Of a stretch of 64,000 bases of DNA, positions 22,407-26,594 are shown piece after piece. Each line of letters opens with the position of its first letter. Within the stretch, counting starts at the first letter, position 1. The stretch spans positions 1-64,000 of the forward strand of contig NZ_JAHXBG010000007.1 in the NCBI RefSeq assembly GCF_020103725.1, in the 5' to 3' direction. This DNA is from Hyalangium gracile. Lineage in GTDB: Bacteria; Myxococcota; Myxococcia; Myxococcales; Myxococcaceae. The position numbers were made by a program, and so were the translations under genes. The notes under the pieces are model-generated. The model was not told the DNA's origin, did no database searches, and saw only the letters and a list, made by a program, of their open reading frames with translations.

Positions 22407-22988
22407 ATGAAGTGCTTCCCGATCCGCGCGGCCACGCTCCTGATGACGATGCTGATGGGGGCTCCCATCGCCAGGGCCGCGGATGATCTGGCTCCTGGCC
22501 GGCAGGCGGCCCTGCTGCTCCGCGTGCTTCCCTATGATCGGACCTTGAAACAGCGCGCGCGCGAGGCCGTCACGGTCGCCGTCCTCCACCGCGACGGACA
22601 GGTCGCGTCCGCGGCCTACGCGATCGACATGACCGCCGCGCTGCAAGACTTCGCGCGCGCGGTCCGGGTTCGCGGTCTCCCCGTTCGTGTCATCGGCCTG
22701 CCGTACTCCTCGCCCGAGAAGCTCGAGGCGGAGCTCACGCGCGCTCAGGTGACGGCCGCCTACGTCTGCCCGGGGCTCACGGATGTCTCGGAGACACTCA
22801 TGGACATCACGCGGCGCAGGAAGATCCTGACGTTCTCTGGACGCGAGAGCGACATTCGAGAGCACTTCAGCATCGGGCTCATCCGACGGGGCACGAAGGC
22901 GGCGCTGCTCGTGAACCTGCCCGAGGCCCAGGCCGAAGGCGCGGAGCTGGAGCCAGAGATGCTCGCCATGAGCGAGGTGCTGCGATGA
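22407..22988 (+). CDS. YfiR-like periplasmic protein (DUF4154)
   Basis: A 193-residue exported protein (signal peptide ending GAPIARA). The mature part follows the YfiR/DUF4154 pattern: ALLLRVLPYDRTLKQRA, VTVAVLHRDG, then VTAAYVCPGL, ILTFSGRES and FSIGLIRRGTKAALLVNL. YfiR of Pseudomonas is a periplasmic inhibitor that binds the CHASE8 sensor domain of the diguanylate cyclase YfiN. Here the stop overlaps the start of a CHASE8-like histidine kinase by ATGA, so the pair probably works the same way but controls a kinase. It is the first large gene of a four-gene operon. Confidence 0.88.
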   Translation: MKCFPIRAATLLMTMLMGAPIARAADDLAPGRQAALLLRVLPYDRTLKQRAREAVTVAVLHRDGQVASAAYAIDMTAALQDFARAVRVRGLPVRVIGLPYSSPEKLEAELTRAQVTAAYVCPGLTDVSETLMDITRRRKILTFSGRESDIREHFSIGLIRRGTKAALLVNLPEAQAEGAELEPEMLAMSEVLR

Positions 22989-24499
22989 TCAGCGCGCTGA
23001 AGAACTTCGTGAGCGCCAGGCCGCTCAAGGTCAAGCTGGTGAGCCTGGTGTCGCTCGTGGTGCTGGTGACGGTGCTCGTGCTGTCGGTGTCGCTGACCCG
23101 CTCGCTGACGTCCCAGACGGGAGATCTCCTCAAGGTGCGGGCCACGAGCCTGGCCACCGTCATGGCCACCCTGGTCTCCGCGGCCATCGAGTTCGACAAC
23201 CCGGAGGCGGCCACCGAGCGGCTCAGTGCCCTCTCCAAGAGCCCGGACGCCACCTACGCCGTCATCTACGCGCGGGATGGCAGCGTCATGGCCCACTGGG
23301 GCGCCATCCCCCCGGCCTCCGTCGTGCCGCTGCCAGTCAGCGCCCTGACGACGAAGGACGAGCACCACCTGCTGCACGTGGCCATGCCCGTGAGCGAGAC
23401 GCTCCATGCCTCCCTGGTCGTCGCCTTCTCCCGCGCCGAGCAGCAGCGACAGACCGCCGCCATCGGCCGGGCGGCGCTGGTGACCTCCGGGGCGCTCCTG
23501 CCGGTGATGATCCTCCTGGGGTACCTGGTCGCGGCCGGCTTCGTGCGGCCCATCCGCTCCATGGCGCGGATCGCCGACGCCATCGCCCGGGGAGATCGCG
23601 TGGCGCTGTCCCAGCTGCCGGCCGACCGCGTGGACGAGTCCGGCATCCTCGCGAGGGCCTTCCAGCGGCTCCTGCGGCAGGAGCACGAGAACCAGGCCAT
23701 GCTCGAGACGCGCGTCGAGGAGCGCACGCGCGAGCTGCAGAAGGCCAACGAGGAGCTGGCCTTGCGGCTCCGCCAGCTCGCGGATGCCCAGGAGCAGCTC
23801 GTGCAGAGCCGGAAGATGGCCGCGGTGGGGCAGCTCGCTGGCGGCGTGGCGCACGAGATCAACAACCCGCTGGCCGTCATCCTCGGGTTCGCGCAGGGCA
23901 TGGAGCGGCGGGTGCCGGAGAAGGATCCGCTGCGCCTGCCCGTCACCTCGATCGTCCGCGAGGCGCTGCGCTGCAAGAACCTGGTCCAGGAGCTGCTGAC
24001 CTTCTCGCGGACGGGGAAGAAGAACTTCGAGTCGGTGGACGTGAACGCGCTCGCGCGCTCCACGCTCGTCCTCATCGAGGCGCGGGCGAAGACGCAGGGC
24101 GTGAAGCTCATCACGGAGTTCGCCGACGGGCTGCCCACGCTCCAGGCCAACAAGACGCAGCTGCAGCAGGTGCTGGTGAACCTGGGCACCAACGCCCTGG
24201 ACGTGATGAAGGGCGGCGGGACGCTGACGGTGCGCTCGCGTCCGAACCCGAAGGGAGGCGTCTTCCTGGAGGTGGTGGACACGGGCGGGGGCATCCCGAC
24301 GGACGTGCTGCCCCGCATCTTCGAGCCCTTCTTCACCACCAAGGGCGTGGGGGAGGGCACGGGCCTGGGCCTGAGCCTGGTCTACGAGATCGTCCAGCAG
24401 CACCGGGGCGACATCGAGGTGGACAGCACCCCGGGGCAGGGCACGCGGATGACGGTGTCACTGCCCGTGGACCCCGCGGCGGGGGCGGTCAGCGCATGA
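22985..24499 (+). CDS. CHASE8-like/HAMP sensor histidine kinase
   Basis: A 504-residue kinase. TM1 lies at about residues 16-38. The periplasmic part (about 45-150: SLATVMATLVSAAIEFDNPE, then TYAVIYARDGSVMAHWG) looks like the CHASE8 domain of YfiN/TpbB-type proteins. TM2 is at about 160-182, then a HAMP (RPIRSMARIADAIARGDR), a coiled coil, HisKA with His290 (AHEINNPLA), and a complete HATPase with N box (NLGTNALDVM), G1 (DTGGGIP) and G2 (GTGLGLSLVYEI). It overlaps yfiR-like and the receiver gene by four bases on each side. It probably phosphorylates one or both downstream receivers. Confidence 0.93.
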   Translation: MISALKNFVSARPLKVKLVSLVSLVVLVTVLVLSVSLTRSLTSQTGDLLKVRATSLATVMATLVSAAIEFDNPEAATERLSALSKSPDATYAVIYARDGSVMAHWGAIPPASVVPLPVSALTTKDEHHLLHVAMPVSETLHASLVVAFSRAEQQRQTAAIGRAALVTSGALLPVMILLGYLVAAGFVRPIRSMARIADAIARGDRVALSQLPADRVDESGILARAFQRLLRQEHENQAMLETRVEERTRELQKANEELALRLRQLADAQEQLVQSRKMAAVGQLAGGVAHEINNPLAVILGFAQGMERRVPEKDPLRLPVTSIVREALRCKNLVQELLTFSRTGKKNFESVDVNALARSTLVLIEARAKTQGVKLITEFADGLPTLQANKTQLQQVLVNLGTNALDVMKGGGTLTVRSRPNPKGGVFLEVVDTGGGIPTDVLPRIFEPFFTTKGVGEGTGLGLSLVYEIVQQHRGDIEVDSTPGQGTRMTVSLPVDPAAGAVSA

Positions 24500-24885: not shown

Positions 24886-26594
24886 CCATACGCGCCGCTG
24901 TCCTTGTCATCGATGACGAGCCAGGCATCCGGGACATGCTCCTGTATGAGCTCTCCCAGGAAGGCTTCGACGTGGAGACGGCCGAGAACGGCTTCGCCGC
25001 GGTGGAGGCCCTCAAGCGCCGGAAGTTCGATCTGGCCGTCACGGACCTCAAGATGCCGGGGATGGACGGCATGCAGACCGTGGAGGCGCTGCGCGCGCTG
25101 GATCCGGACATCGAGGTGATCGTCGCCACCGGCTATGCGAGCGTGGAGACGGCCGTGGCCTGCATGAAGCGCGGGGCCTACGACTACATCCAGAAGCCCT
25201 ATGATCCGGCGGAGCTGAAGCTCCTGCTGGAGCGGGCGACGCAGAAGAACCACCTGCAGGGCGTGGTGTCCCTCTACGAGGCGAGCCGCGCGCTGCTGTC
25301 CACGCTCAAGCACTCGGACCTGGTCCGGTTGGTGGTGACGCTGGCCCAGCGGGTGCTGCGCGCCGATGACGTCGCCCTCCTGCTCCAGCGGGGGGACTCC
25401 AAGGACTTCGACATCCACCGGCTCACGGAGGCGGCCACCCCCTCCACCGAGCTCCTCACGGAGCTGGGCCAGCGCGTGATCGACTCCGACTCGGCGCTCC
25501 GGCTGCCCGCTCCCTCCATCCCCATGGTCACCTCCACCCGAGCGGGTGACGCCTATGCCTTCGCGCTCGTGTATCCGCTGATCGCGCGCGACCGCACCAT
25601 GGGCGCCCTGGTCGCGCTGCGCCGCTCGGCGTCACCGGAGTTCGCCCTGTCCGAGCTGGAGCGGGGCACGGTGTTCGCCAGCCAGCTCGCCGTCTCGCTG
25701 GACAACGCCCGCCTGTATGACGAGCTGGCCCAGAAGATCTCCGAGCTCATGGCCACCCGCGAGCAGCTCGTCCACGCCGAGAAGCTGGCCCTGGCCGGCA
25801 AGCTGGCCGGCGCCGTGGCTCATGAGGTCAACAACCCGCTGTCCTTCGTGCGGGCGAACCTCGATGCCCTGAAGGACTACTCCTCGGCGGTGGGGGGGCT
25901 CTGGCGCGCGGTGGAGAGCGCCGCCCTGTACCTCCGCGGTCTGCCCGAGGCCCAGGCCCAGGAGCATGCCCGCGGCCTGACCCATGCCGGCGAGCGCGGC
26001 GATCGGACGGAGAACCTCGTCCGGGAGATCGGCGAGGCCATCGACGAGACGCTCGAAGGCGTGAGGCGGATCTCCGAGCTCGTGGCCGGCTTCGCGAGCC
26101 TCGCCAGCCTGCGGGAGGCCGCGACTCCCGAGCCGGTCGACGTCAACGAGGTGCTCCAGGACTGCGTGGAGGCACTGCCGAGCCAGGCCCGGCGGCACCT
26201 GGCCCAGGTCAGCACCGAGGCCCAGCCGTGCATGGCGCTCCTCGCGAGGGAGGAGCTCCGCTCGGCCCTGTTCAACCTGCTGGCCTTCCTCTGCGCGACC
26301 GAGCGGAAGCGGACCCAGGGCACCGGAGCGCTGAAGGTCCTCACCACGTTGGAAGGTACCCAGCCGGTGGTGCTCTTCCAGGACGAGACGCTGGTGCTGA
26401 CCGAGGACGAGCGCCACCGCATCTTCGATCCGAGCGTGGAGCTGGACCGCGGCGGCCGTACCATGCGCCTCAACCTCGCGCTCGCGCTGTCCTACCAGGT
26501 GCTGCGCCGCGGCGGCGCCGAGGTGTCGACGAGCTTCGAGAGCGGGCGCGGCCTCACGCTCCGGGTGCTCCTGCCGCCCGTCATCGGCAAGTAG
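24882..26594 (+). CDS. Receiver-GAF-kinase hybrid with degenerate ATPase domain
   Basis: A 570-residue protein. The receiver (residues 1-125) has Asp55 (VTDLKMPG) and Lys105 (QKPYD). A GAF-like domain covers about 130-275 and a coiled coil leads to HisKA with His314 (AHEVNNPLS). The C-terminal domain keeps the HATPase length and shape but lacks its motifs: the N box reads FNLLAFLCA instead of NL..NA, G1 reads FQDETLVLT instead of DTGxGI, and G2 reads MRLNLALALS. It probably cannot bind ATP normally. It may be phosphorylated at Asp55 or His314 by the upstream kinase. It is the last gene of the operon. Confidence 0.9.
   Translation: MTIRAAVLVIDDEPGIRDMLLYELSQEGFDVETAENGFAAVEALKRRKFDLAVTDLKMPGMDGMQTVEALRALDPDIEVIVATGYASVETAVACMKRGAYDYIQKPYDPAELKLLLERATQKNHLQGVVSLYEASRALLSTLKHSDLVRLVVTLAQRVLRADDVALLLQRGDSKDFDIHRLTEAATPSTELLTELGQRVIDSDSALRLPAPSIPMVTSTRAGDAYAFALVYPLIARDRTMGALVALRRSASPEFALSELERGTVFASQLAVSLDNARLYDELAQKISELMATREQLVHAEKLALAGKLAGAVAHEVNNPLSFVRANLDALKDYSSAVGGLWRAVESAALYLRGLPEAQAQEHARGLTHAGERGDRTENLVREIGEAIDETLEGVRRISELVAGFASLASLREAATPEPVDVNEVLQDCVEALPSQARRHLAQVSTEAQPCMALLAREELRSALFNLLAFLCATERKRTQGTGALKVLTTLEGTQPVVLFQDETLVLTEDERHRIFDPSVELDRGGRTMRLNLALALSYQVLRRGGAEVSTSFESGRGLTLRVLLPPVIGK

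Follow-up and report, generated by a model that had tools for sequence, protein, structure and literature searches.

The window analyzed here is a 64,000-nt stretch of Hyalangium gracile DNA, on contig C7 of an 11.7-Mb genome in 81 contigs, and it carries at 22407-26594 a plus-strand operon of four genes that we propose encodes a YfiR-controlled two-component relay. As noted earlier from the letters and open reading frames (ORFs) alone (hereafter, the sequence-only reading), each gene overlaps the next by ATGA, at 22985-22988, 24496-24499, and 24882-24885 (three of three junctions). The first gene (22407-22988) encodes a periplasmic YfiR-like protein of 193 residues, with a putative signal peptide, which matches the Pfam family DUF4154 (PF13689, YfiR/HmsC-like) with 32.5 bits against a cutoff of 24.9. 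The second (22985-24499) encodes a 504-residue sensor kinase with two transmembrane segments predicted by hydropathy at residues 18 and 164, in which CHASE8 (PF17152, 36.6 bits, cutoff 27), HAMP (25.9, cutoff 25), HisKA (50.2, cutoff 26.9), and HATPase_c (98.2, cutoff 26.4) are all detected, CHASE8 covering residues 52-106 (23138-23302) in the periplasmic part. The third (24496-24885) encodes a single-domain receiver of 129 residues, whose phospho-acceptor is Asp57 by motif and for which Pfam reported Response_reg (88.1 bits) and nothing else; it has no output domain. The fourth (24882-26594), also on the plus strand, encodes a 570-residue receiver–GAF–DHp (dimerization and histidine phosphotransfer) protein with a degenerate ATP-binding domain. 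For the first three genes, these matches agree with the sequence-only reading, which had named a YfiR-like protein, a kinase with a CHASE8-like periplasmic domain and HAMP, and a lone receiver.

In the relay that we propose, docking of the YfiR-like protein on CHASE8 would set the activity of the kinase, a reading to which we assign a probability of roughly two in three.

Predicted Fold of the YfiR-Like Protein

For the first protein, seven sequences were aligned, that of the window and one each from six relatives found in a contig profile scan; L199, whose gene is truncated at a contig end, was excluded. The AlphaFold model predicted from this alignment has a mean predicted local distance difference test score of 88.9 and a predicted template modeling score of 0.83. 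It superimposes on the solved Pseudomonas YfiR (4zhu_B) with a Z score of 15.6 and a root mean square deviation of 2.5 Å over 143 aligned residues, and it matches 5eb1_A in Foldseek with an E value of 5.6e-5. Together with the DUF4154 match, this fold bears out the identification of a YfiR-like protein. The model is about as similar to 3lft_A, an L-Trp–bound binding-protein domain (Z score of 16.3), and to 6k1x, a substrate-binding protein from Rhodothermus marinus (Z score of 15.4).

The functional sites of Pseudomonas YfiR, as described in PMC4655355 and PMC4887326, were mapped without gaps by adding 5 to the Pseudomonas number, which agrees with the last structurally aligned pair (190/185). 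The hydrophobic pocket of Pseudomonas YfiR formed by L166/I169/V176/P178/L181 (PMC4887326) corresponds to L171/A174/L181/P183/L186 in the window protein, so that its hydrophobic character is kept.

YfiR and CHASE8 Are Paired across Myxococcota

Among 195 Myxococcota genomes, we found 67 CHASE8 matches in 49 genomes and 86 DUF4154 matches in 55. Both families are present in 45 genomes, CHASE8 only in 4, and DUF4154 only in 10 (Fisher p of 1e-29, computed ignoring the species tree). On the same contig, 36 of the 67 CHASE8 matches lie within 600 nt of a DUF4154 match and 46 within 5 kb; in 33 cases, DUF4154 immediately precedes CHASE8 on the same strand, the two matches being 111-188 nt apart. 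These figures rule out chance adjacency and show that the gene pair is conserved in myxobacteria.

The outputs joined to CHASE8 are mostly kinases (44 of 67), followed by methyl-accepting chemotaxis proteins (MCP; 13), other or truncated proteins (8), and two matches with no retrieved locus. The 36 matches close to DUF4154 comprise 34 kinases, one MCP, and one truncated copy from contig C18 of the H. gracile genome. There is no GGDEF output in either set. The MCP assignment was confirmed by Pfam in all 10 proteins checked, nine of which belong to the 67, while the tenth (L198) comes from a separate contig profile scan that returned seven loci, all labeled myxobacterial or deltaproteobacterial. 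CHASE8 chemoreceptors are found near or beside yfiR in L134-L138, L155, L159, L162, and L198 (L135 and L137 by profile search only), and they are a chemotaxis branch of the same module.

We then looked for other arrangements. A motif scan that recognizes the E. coli K-12 genes revealed no GGDEF gene within 3 kb of the 86 DUF4154 loci; the single GGDEF ORF in or near the loci is in L069, on a contig with no DUF4154 match. Likewise, an OmpA-like motif scan that finds the YfiB of E. coli K-12 detected none beside the window yfiR, where the sequence-only reading had seen none either, nor within 3 kb of the 86 loci; one OmpA-like ORF, in L165, is ~5 kb from a DUF4154 match and on the opposite strand. 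Natural fusions of YfiR to its sensor were sought in the long frames of L009, L010, L015, L028, and L029, which, when resolved individually, proved to be short yfiR-like genes with separate neighbors.

The two partners also diverge together. For 32 of the 36 close pairs (in the other four, kinase core or YfiR was of insufficient length), the rank correlation of distances is 0.65 between YfiR and CHASE8 vs. 0.43 between YfiR and the kinase core, and the YfiR–CHASE8 partial correlation of 0.58 was reached by none of 500 permutations that ignored the species tree.

The Sensor Keeps the Phenylalanine of the YfiR-Binding Motif

The YfiR-binding motif of YfiN is AAVVF, and conservative changes in it already abolish YfiR binding in Pseudomonas (PMC3375315). 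E. coli DgcN has AAVVF as well. The counterpart in the window kinase is AAIEF (residues 66-70, 23180-23194, plus strand), in which both Ala and the Phe (F70) are kept, while the remaining two of the five positions have I and E where YfiN has V and V. We quantified this conservation in 65 of the 67 CHASE8 proteins, two having no retrieved locus. The motif Phe, which is the most conserved residue within the close set (n = 36), is present in 36/36 proteins within 600 nt of DUF4154 vs. 23/29 of the others (Fisher p of 0.006, an optimistic value since some proteins of the close set are nearly identical to one another). The H, N, G1, and G2 box residues of the kinase are kept in six of six aligned orthologs.

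Outer-Membrane Barrels Neighbor Most yfiR Genes

Two features had been overlooked in the sequence-only reading: the outer-membrane barrel that stands by YfiR and the loss of the ATP boxes in the fourth protein. For the first, we scored the flanks of all 86 DUF4154 matches, ~6 kb to either side (less at contig ends), labeling barrels by iterative profile searches inside the loci. An outer-membrane barrel gene is found within 3 kb of 64/86 loci; the nearest one encodes a TonB-dependent receptor in 55 loci and belongs, in the other 9, to the porin-like family seen in close relatives. In 45/86 loci, the edge of the barrel gene is no more than 500 nt from DUF4154. By comparison, a kinase is within 3 kb in 43/86 loci and an MCP in 14/86. 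From the 25 TonB plug domains in the 11.7 Mb of the H. gracile genome, we estimate that chance would place a barrel beside ~2% of loci. Pfam confirmed both plug and barrel in four of four full receptors that were checked (L057, L064, L065, and L072), as well as the barrel of a broken receptor in L004. For the porin-like family, Pfam gave no match on two proteins, its profile matched no solved structure in the PDB by sequence, and matches were weak both to Porin_4 (three of six members, best E value of 0.0015, 18.8 bits against a cutoff of 27) and to BBP2 (two of six members, best E value of 0.039). The name porin-like is therefore provisional. This neighborhood suggests a route by which signals pass from the outer membrane into the cell.

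Similar loci occur in distant Myxococcota, where L119 and L124 show the order receptor/barrel, yfiR, CHASE8 kinase, lone receiver, and further receiver-kinase, which is also the order in relatives of the window. In L124, barrel and yfiR are separated by an additional short ORF, and G1 and G2 motifs are present in the further kinase; the corresponding receiver-kinase protein of L119 is interrupted by the contig end.

Such a neighborhood could also mean that YfiR-like proteins serve the barrel, in its assembly or transport, and that the kinase is merely cotranscribed. In 17/86 DUF4154 loci, a barrel lies within 3 kb and neither a kinase nor an MCP does, and a second yfiR of H. gracile, on contig C2 (L005), adjoins a barrel with no kinase in the scan. 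This explanation is nevertheless improbable, since YfiR tracks CHASE8 (0.65, 32 pairs) more than it does the TonB receptor (0.26, 48 pairs, the two sets being different), DUF4154 is also present in 45 of the 49 genomes with CHASE8, and the window locus keeps yfiR and the kinase intact without a barrel.

Alternatively, the YfiR-like protein might be a ligand-binding coreceptor that activates the kinase when loaded, rather than a sequestered inhibitor of the YfiBNR type. This would fit with a fold as close to the two binding proteins 3lft_A and 6k1x as to YfiR, with barrels that resemble uptake channels, and with plugs that start at residue 51-65 in the four full TonB receptors, which have no long N-terminal signaling domain. 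Pseudomonas YfiR, moreover, weakly binds vitamin B6 and L-Trp (PMC4887326). We consider the coreceptor somewhat unlikely, since YfiN-like docking would be expected to preserve the YfiN-type Phe and the hydrophobic pocket, both of which are kept, and since R. marinus is among the distant genomes with YfiN/YfiR listed in PMC3375315, so that 6k1x may itself be a YfiR.

The Window Locus Appears to Have Lost Its Barrel Gene

In Hyalangium versicolor H56D21 (L195), the same setting reads MFS (major facilitator superfamily)–porin-like barrel–yfiR–kinase–receiver–gene 4, and a barrel also precedes yfiR in four other genomes of the genus (L053-L056). The window and H. versicolor are 85% identical in DNA over 1328 bp of the MFS stretch, and a 44-nt stretch from shortly before the H. 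versicolor barrel survives at 22284-22327 (plus strand, 79.5% identity), where it marks the site of the missing gene. Between this stretch and yfiR, no barrel remnant matched with an E value below 0.1. By this alignment with L195, on which the absence mainly rests, a porin-like barrel gene that is still present in five relatives in all has evidently gone from the window locus; tblastn with the C2 barrel as query gave a best E value of 0.79.

Two other loci of the H. gracile genome are relevant. On contig C2 (L005:8832-10781), a porin-like barrel is directly followed by the yfiR mentioned above; this barrel resembles those of the remaining relatives (68-70%) more than the H. versicolor one (55%), and it could supply the barrel missing from the window locus. 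On contig C18 (L004:6346-8820), a second YfiR–CHASE8 locus is broken, its CHASE8-HAMP gene stopping after 242 residues and being followed by a TonB receptor without plug. Since the H. versicolor counterpart (L196) reads YfiR, hybrid kinase, and full-length receptor-like gene, the C18 copy has apparently lost its kinase core through a deletion.

The window locus might then be a decaying copy that has sensed nothing since the barrel was lost, with the C2 barrel–yfiR pair as the working remnant. The gap between MFS and yfiR, and the presence in the same genome of a clearly broken copy of a related system, would agree with this. We nevertheless give decay little credence, since the four window genes are intact and overlapping, the kinase and receiver motifs are kept, the 44-nt upstream stretch has been retained, and the kinase is 86% identical to its H. 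versicolor counterpart.

The left flank of the lost barrel is a plus-strand gene (20754-22079) resembling MFS metabolite/H+ symporters, whose membership in the system is uncertain and whose best NCBIfam match falls below the cutoff of that family. It is 76% identical to L071:7070-8386, from another genome of the genus, where the MFS gene follows an orphan CHASE8 hybrid kinase that has no nearby YfiR and has lost the motif Phe; transporter and CHASE8 sensors may be linked. Farther away, the operon is flanked by two histidine-kinase–like ORFs, at 16003-17055 (which enters from upstream) and 29757-31628. A scan of 22000-26800 detected no sigma-70 promoter and one terminator-like site at chance level.

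The Fourth Protein Keeps Its Histidine but Not Its ATP Site

The fourth protein had been called receiver-GAF-kinase-like. Pfam detects the receiver (Response_reg), GAF, and a subthreshold HisKA (23.6 against a cutoff of 26.9) but no HATPase_c, and kinase-like turns out to be too generous, since the ATP boxes are gone. Profile comparison aligned its DHp and ATP-binding regions to those of the sensor kinase at 98.4% probability, which makes the replacements visible: the N, G1, and G2 boxes are replaced in five of five aligned orthologs. In contrast, none of the five varies in the His box AVAHEVNNPLSF, with His314, or at D55 and K105 of the receiver. A structure prediction from two sequences only was unusable (predicted local distance difference test score of 38.7). 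These alignments indicate that the fourth protein is probably not a kinase; because it keeps a histidine and a receiver aspartate without an ATP site, it likely acts in passing phosphate or as a phosphatase. ChpT/Spo0B-type phosphotransferases are kinase-related proteins that likewise have kept the DHp histidine and lost the ATP site. The fourth protein, for which phosphotransfer is predicted, shares these features but is fused to a receiver and GAF.

Discussion

The window pair resembles YfiBNR (TpbB) of Pseudomonas aeruginosa and YfiR-DgcN-YfiB of E. coli in that yfiR is directly upstream of a CHASE8/PAS-HAMP inner-membrane protein, the sensor carries an AAxxF motif, and its partner has the YfiR fold. 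It differs in that the output is a histidine kinase (HisKA and HATPase_c) with receivers instead of a GGDEF diguanylate cyclase that makes the messenger c-di-GMP, no YfiB was found, the disulfide cysteines of YfiR are absent, and relatives have an outer-membrane barrel as neighbor.

The sequence-only reading had proposed that a YfiR/CHASE8 pair has been joined to a HisKA/HATPase output, which the domains, the fold, the pairing, the motif Phe, and the co-divergence all support. However, the idea is not new, since a YfiR/YfiN[PAS] pair driving a kinase was already published, in silico, in 2012. The main text of Malone et al. (PMC3375315) reports that YfiN-like proteins paired with YfiR have sensor histidine kinase, hybrid kinase, histidine phosphotransfer (HPT), or GGDEF-EAL outputs and that divergent YfiR–YfiN pairs almost all lack YfiB, and its Discussion adds MCP domains as a further output. 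Our locus is like these divergent pairs in having a YfiR/YfiN[PAS-HAMP] core on a kinase, no YfiB, and conserved hydrophobic residues, but the terms TonB and porin are absent from the main text of that paper. The present analysis adds that most of these yfiR genes stand beside a barrel gene, that F70 is conserved, and that the fourth protein has lost its ATP site. In the titles and abstract beginnings that we searched, mostly outside subscription journals, we found no report of a linkage between YfiR and TonB receptors, which may be in print elsewhere, nor of YfiR in Myxococcus or of CHASE8 kinases paired with YfiR.

A comparable architecture is known from trans-envelope signaling of the FecA-FecR-FecI type. 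There, an outer-membrane TonB receptor is connected with a periplasmic relay and with a regulator in the inner membrane, a layout shared with the YfiR loci that have a TonB receptor. Unlike the Fec system, the four window genes include no anti-sigma/sigma pair, and a long N-terminal signaling domain is missing from the four TonB receptors scanned.

Several observations weigh against a YfiR-controlled relay. The first is that the solved YfiR in the PDB was matched neither by the window YfiR-like sequence nor by a profile built from 20 myxobacterial YfiR proteins, although a more typical myxobacterial YfiR (L064) does match it by sequence (E value of 6e-7). Moreover, at the positions of the aromatic F151 and F162 and of E163, I169, and Q187 in Pseudomonas YfiR, the window protein has I, L, L, A, and L, respectively, and neither Pseudomonas disulfide (C71-C110 and C145-C152; PMC4655355 and PMC4887326) is conserved. 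Residues C145 and C152 are replaced by I150 and G157, and with C121 as sole Cys after the signal region neither disulfide is possible, so that the redox switch proposed for Pseudomonas YfiR in these papers is inapplicable in that form; these disulfides are a trait of Pseudomonas YfiR rather than a criterion for membership in the Pfam family. On the sensor side, for 21/67 CHASE8 matches the contig shows no DUF4154 at a distance of up to 5 kb, and since the motif Phe is kept in 23/29 proteins that are not close to DUF4154, it may be partly a CHASE8 family trait. The near-identical proteins in the close set, together with the neglect of the species tree in the Fisher and permutation figures, further temper the statistics. 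On the outer-membrane side, the window locus itself has no barrel, 22/86 DUF4154 loci have none within 3 kb (some of them at contig ends), and the distance correlation between YfiR and TonB receptors is weak (0.26 for 48 of the 55, receptors of more than 600 residues with a long enough YfiR).

Taking these points together, we favor the following scheme. In the periplasm, the YfiR-like protein would bind the CHASE8 domain of the kinase, which is YfiN-PAS-like, with F70 entering the hydrophobic pocket of YfiR, and this docking would set kinase activity through HAMP. In relatives, an outer-membrane barrel occupies the place that YfiB has in Pseudomonas, porin-like in close relatives and a TonB-dependent receptor in most others, and it may admit a ligand for YfiR, whose fold is substrate-binding-protein–like, or may hold YfiR. 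The kinase would phosphorylate one or both receivers, the lone one and that of the fourth protein, phosphate presumably flowing in that direction, and the fourth protein would pass on or remove phosphate instead of making it. Since no DNA-binding domain is among the Pfam matches of the four proteins, the final output of the relay probably lies outside the operon.

More tentatively, this operon may be one form of a general myxobacterial trans-envelope module, in which an outer-membrane channel, either a TonB-dependent receptor or a porin-like barrel, feeds or holds a YfiR that controls a CHASE8 kinase or chemoreceptor. The proteobacterial YfiBNR would then be a specialized branch, with the channel replaced by the lipoprotein YfiB and the output by GGDEF, and in the genus Hyalangium the fourth protein, without its ATP site, would be a phosphate-passing hub.

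Where YfiB is absent, the channel neighborhood (64/86 loci) offers a testable answer to what YfiR responds to at the outer membrane and a place to seek the ligand. With this operon, an in silico remark of 2012 becomes a concrete set of genes with a motif residue, F70, that can be mutated, and H. versicolor H56D21 carries the whole operon.

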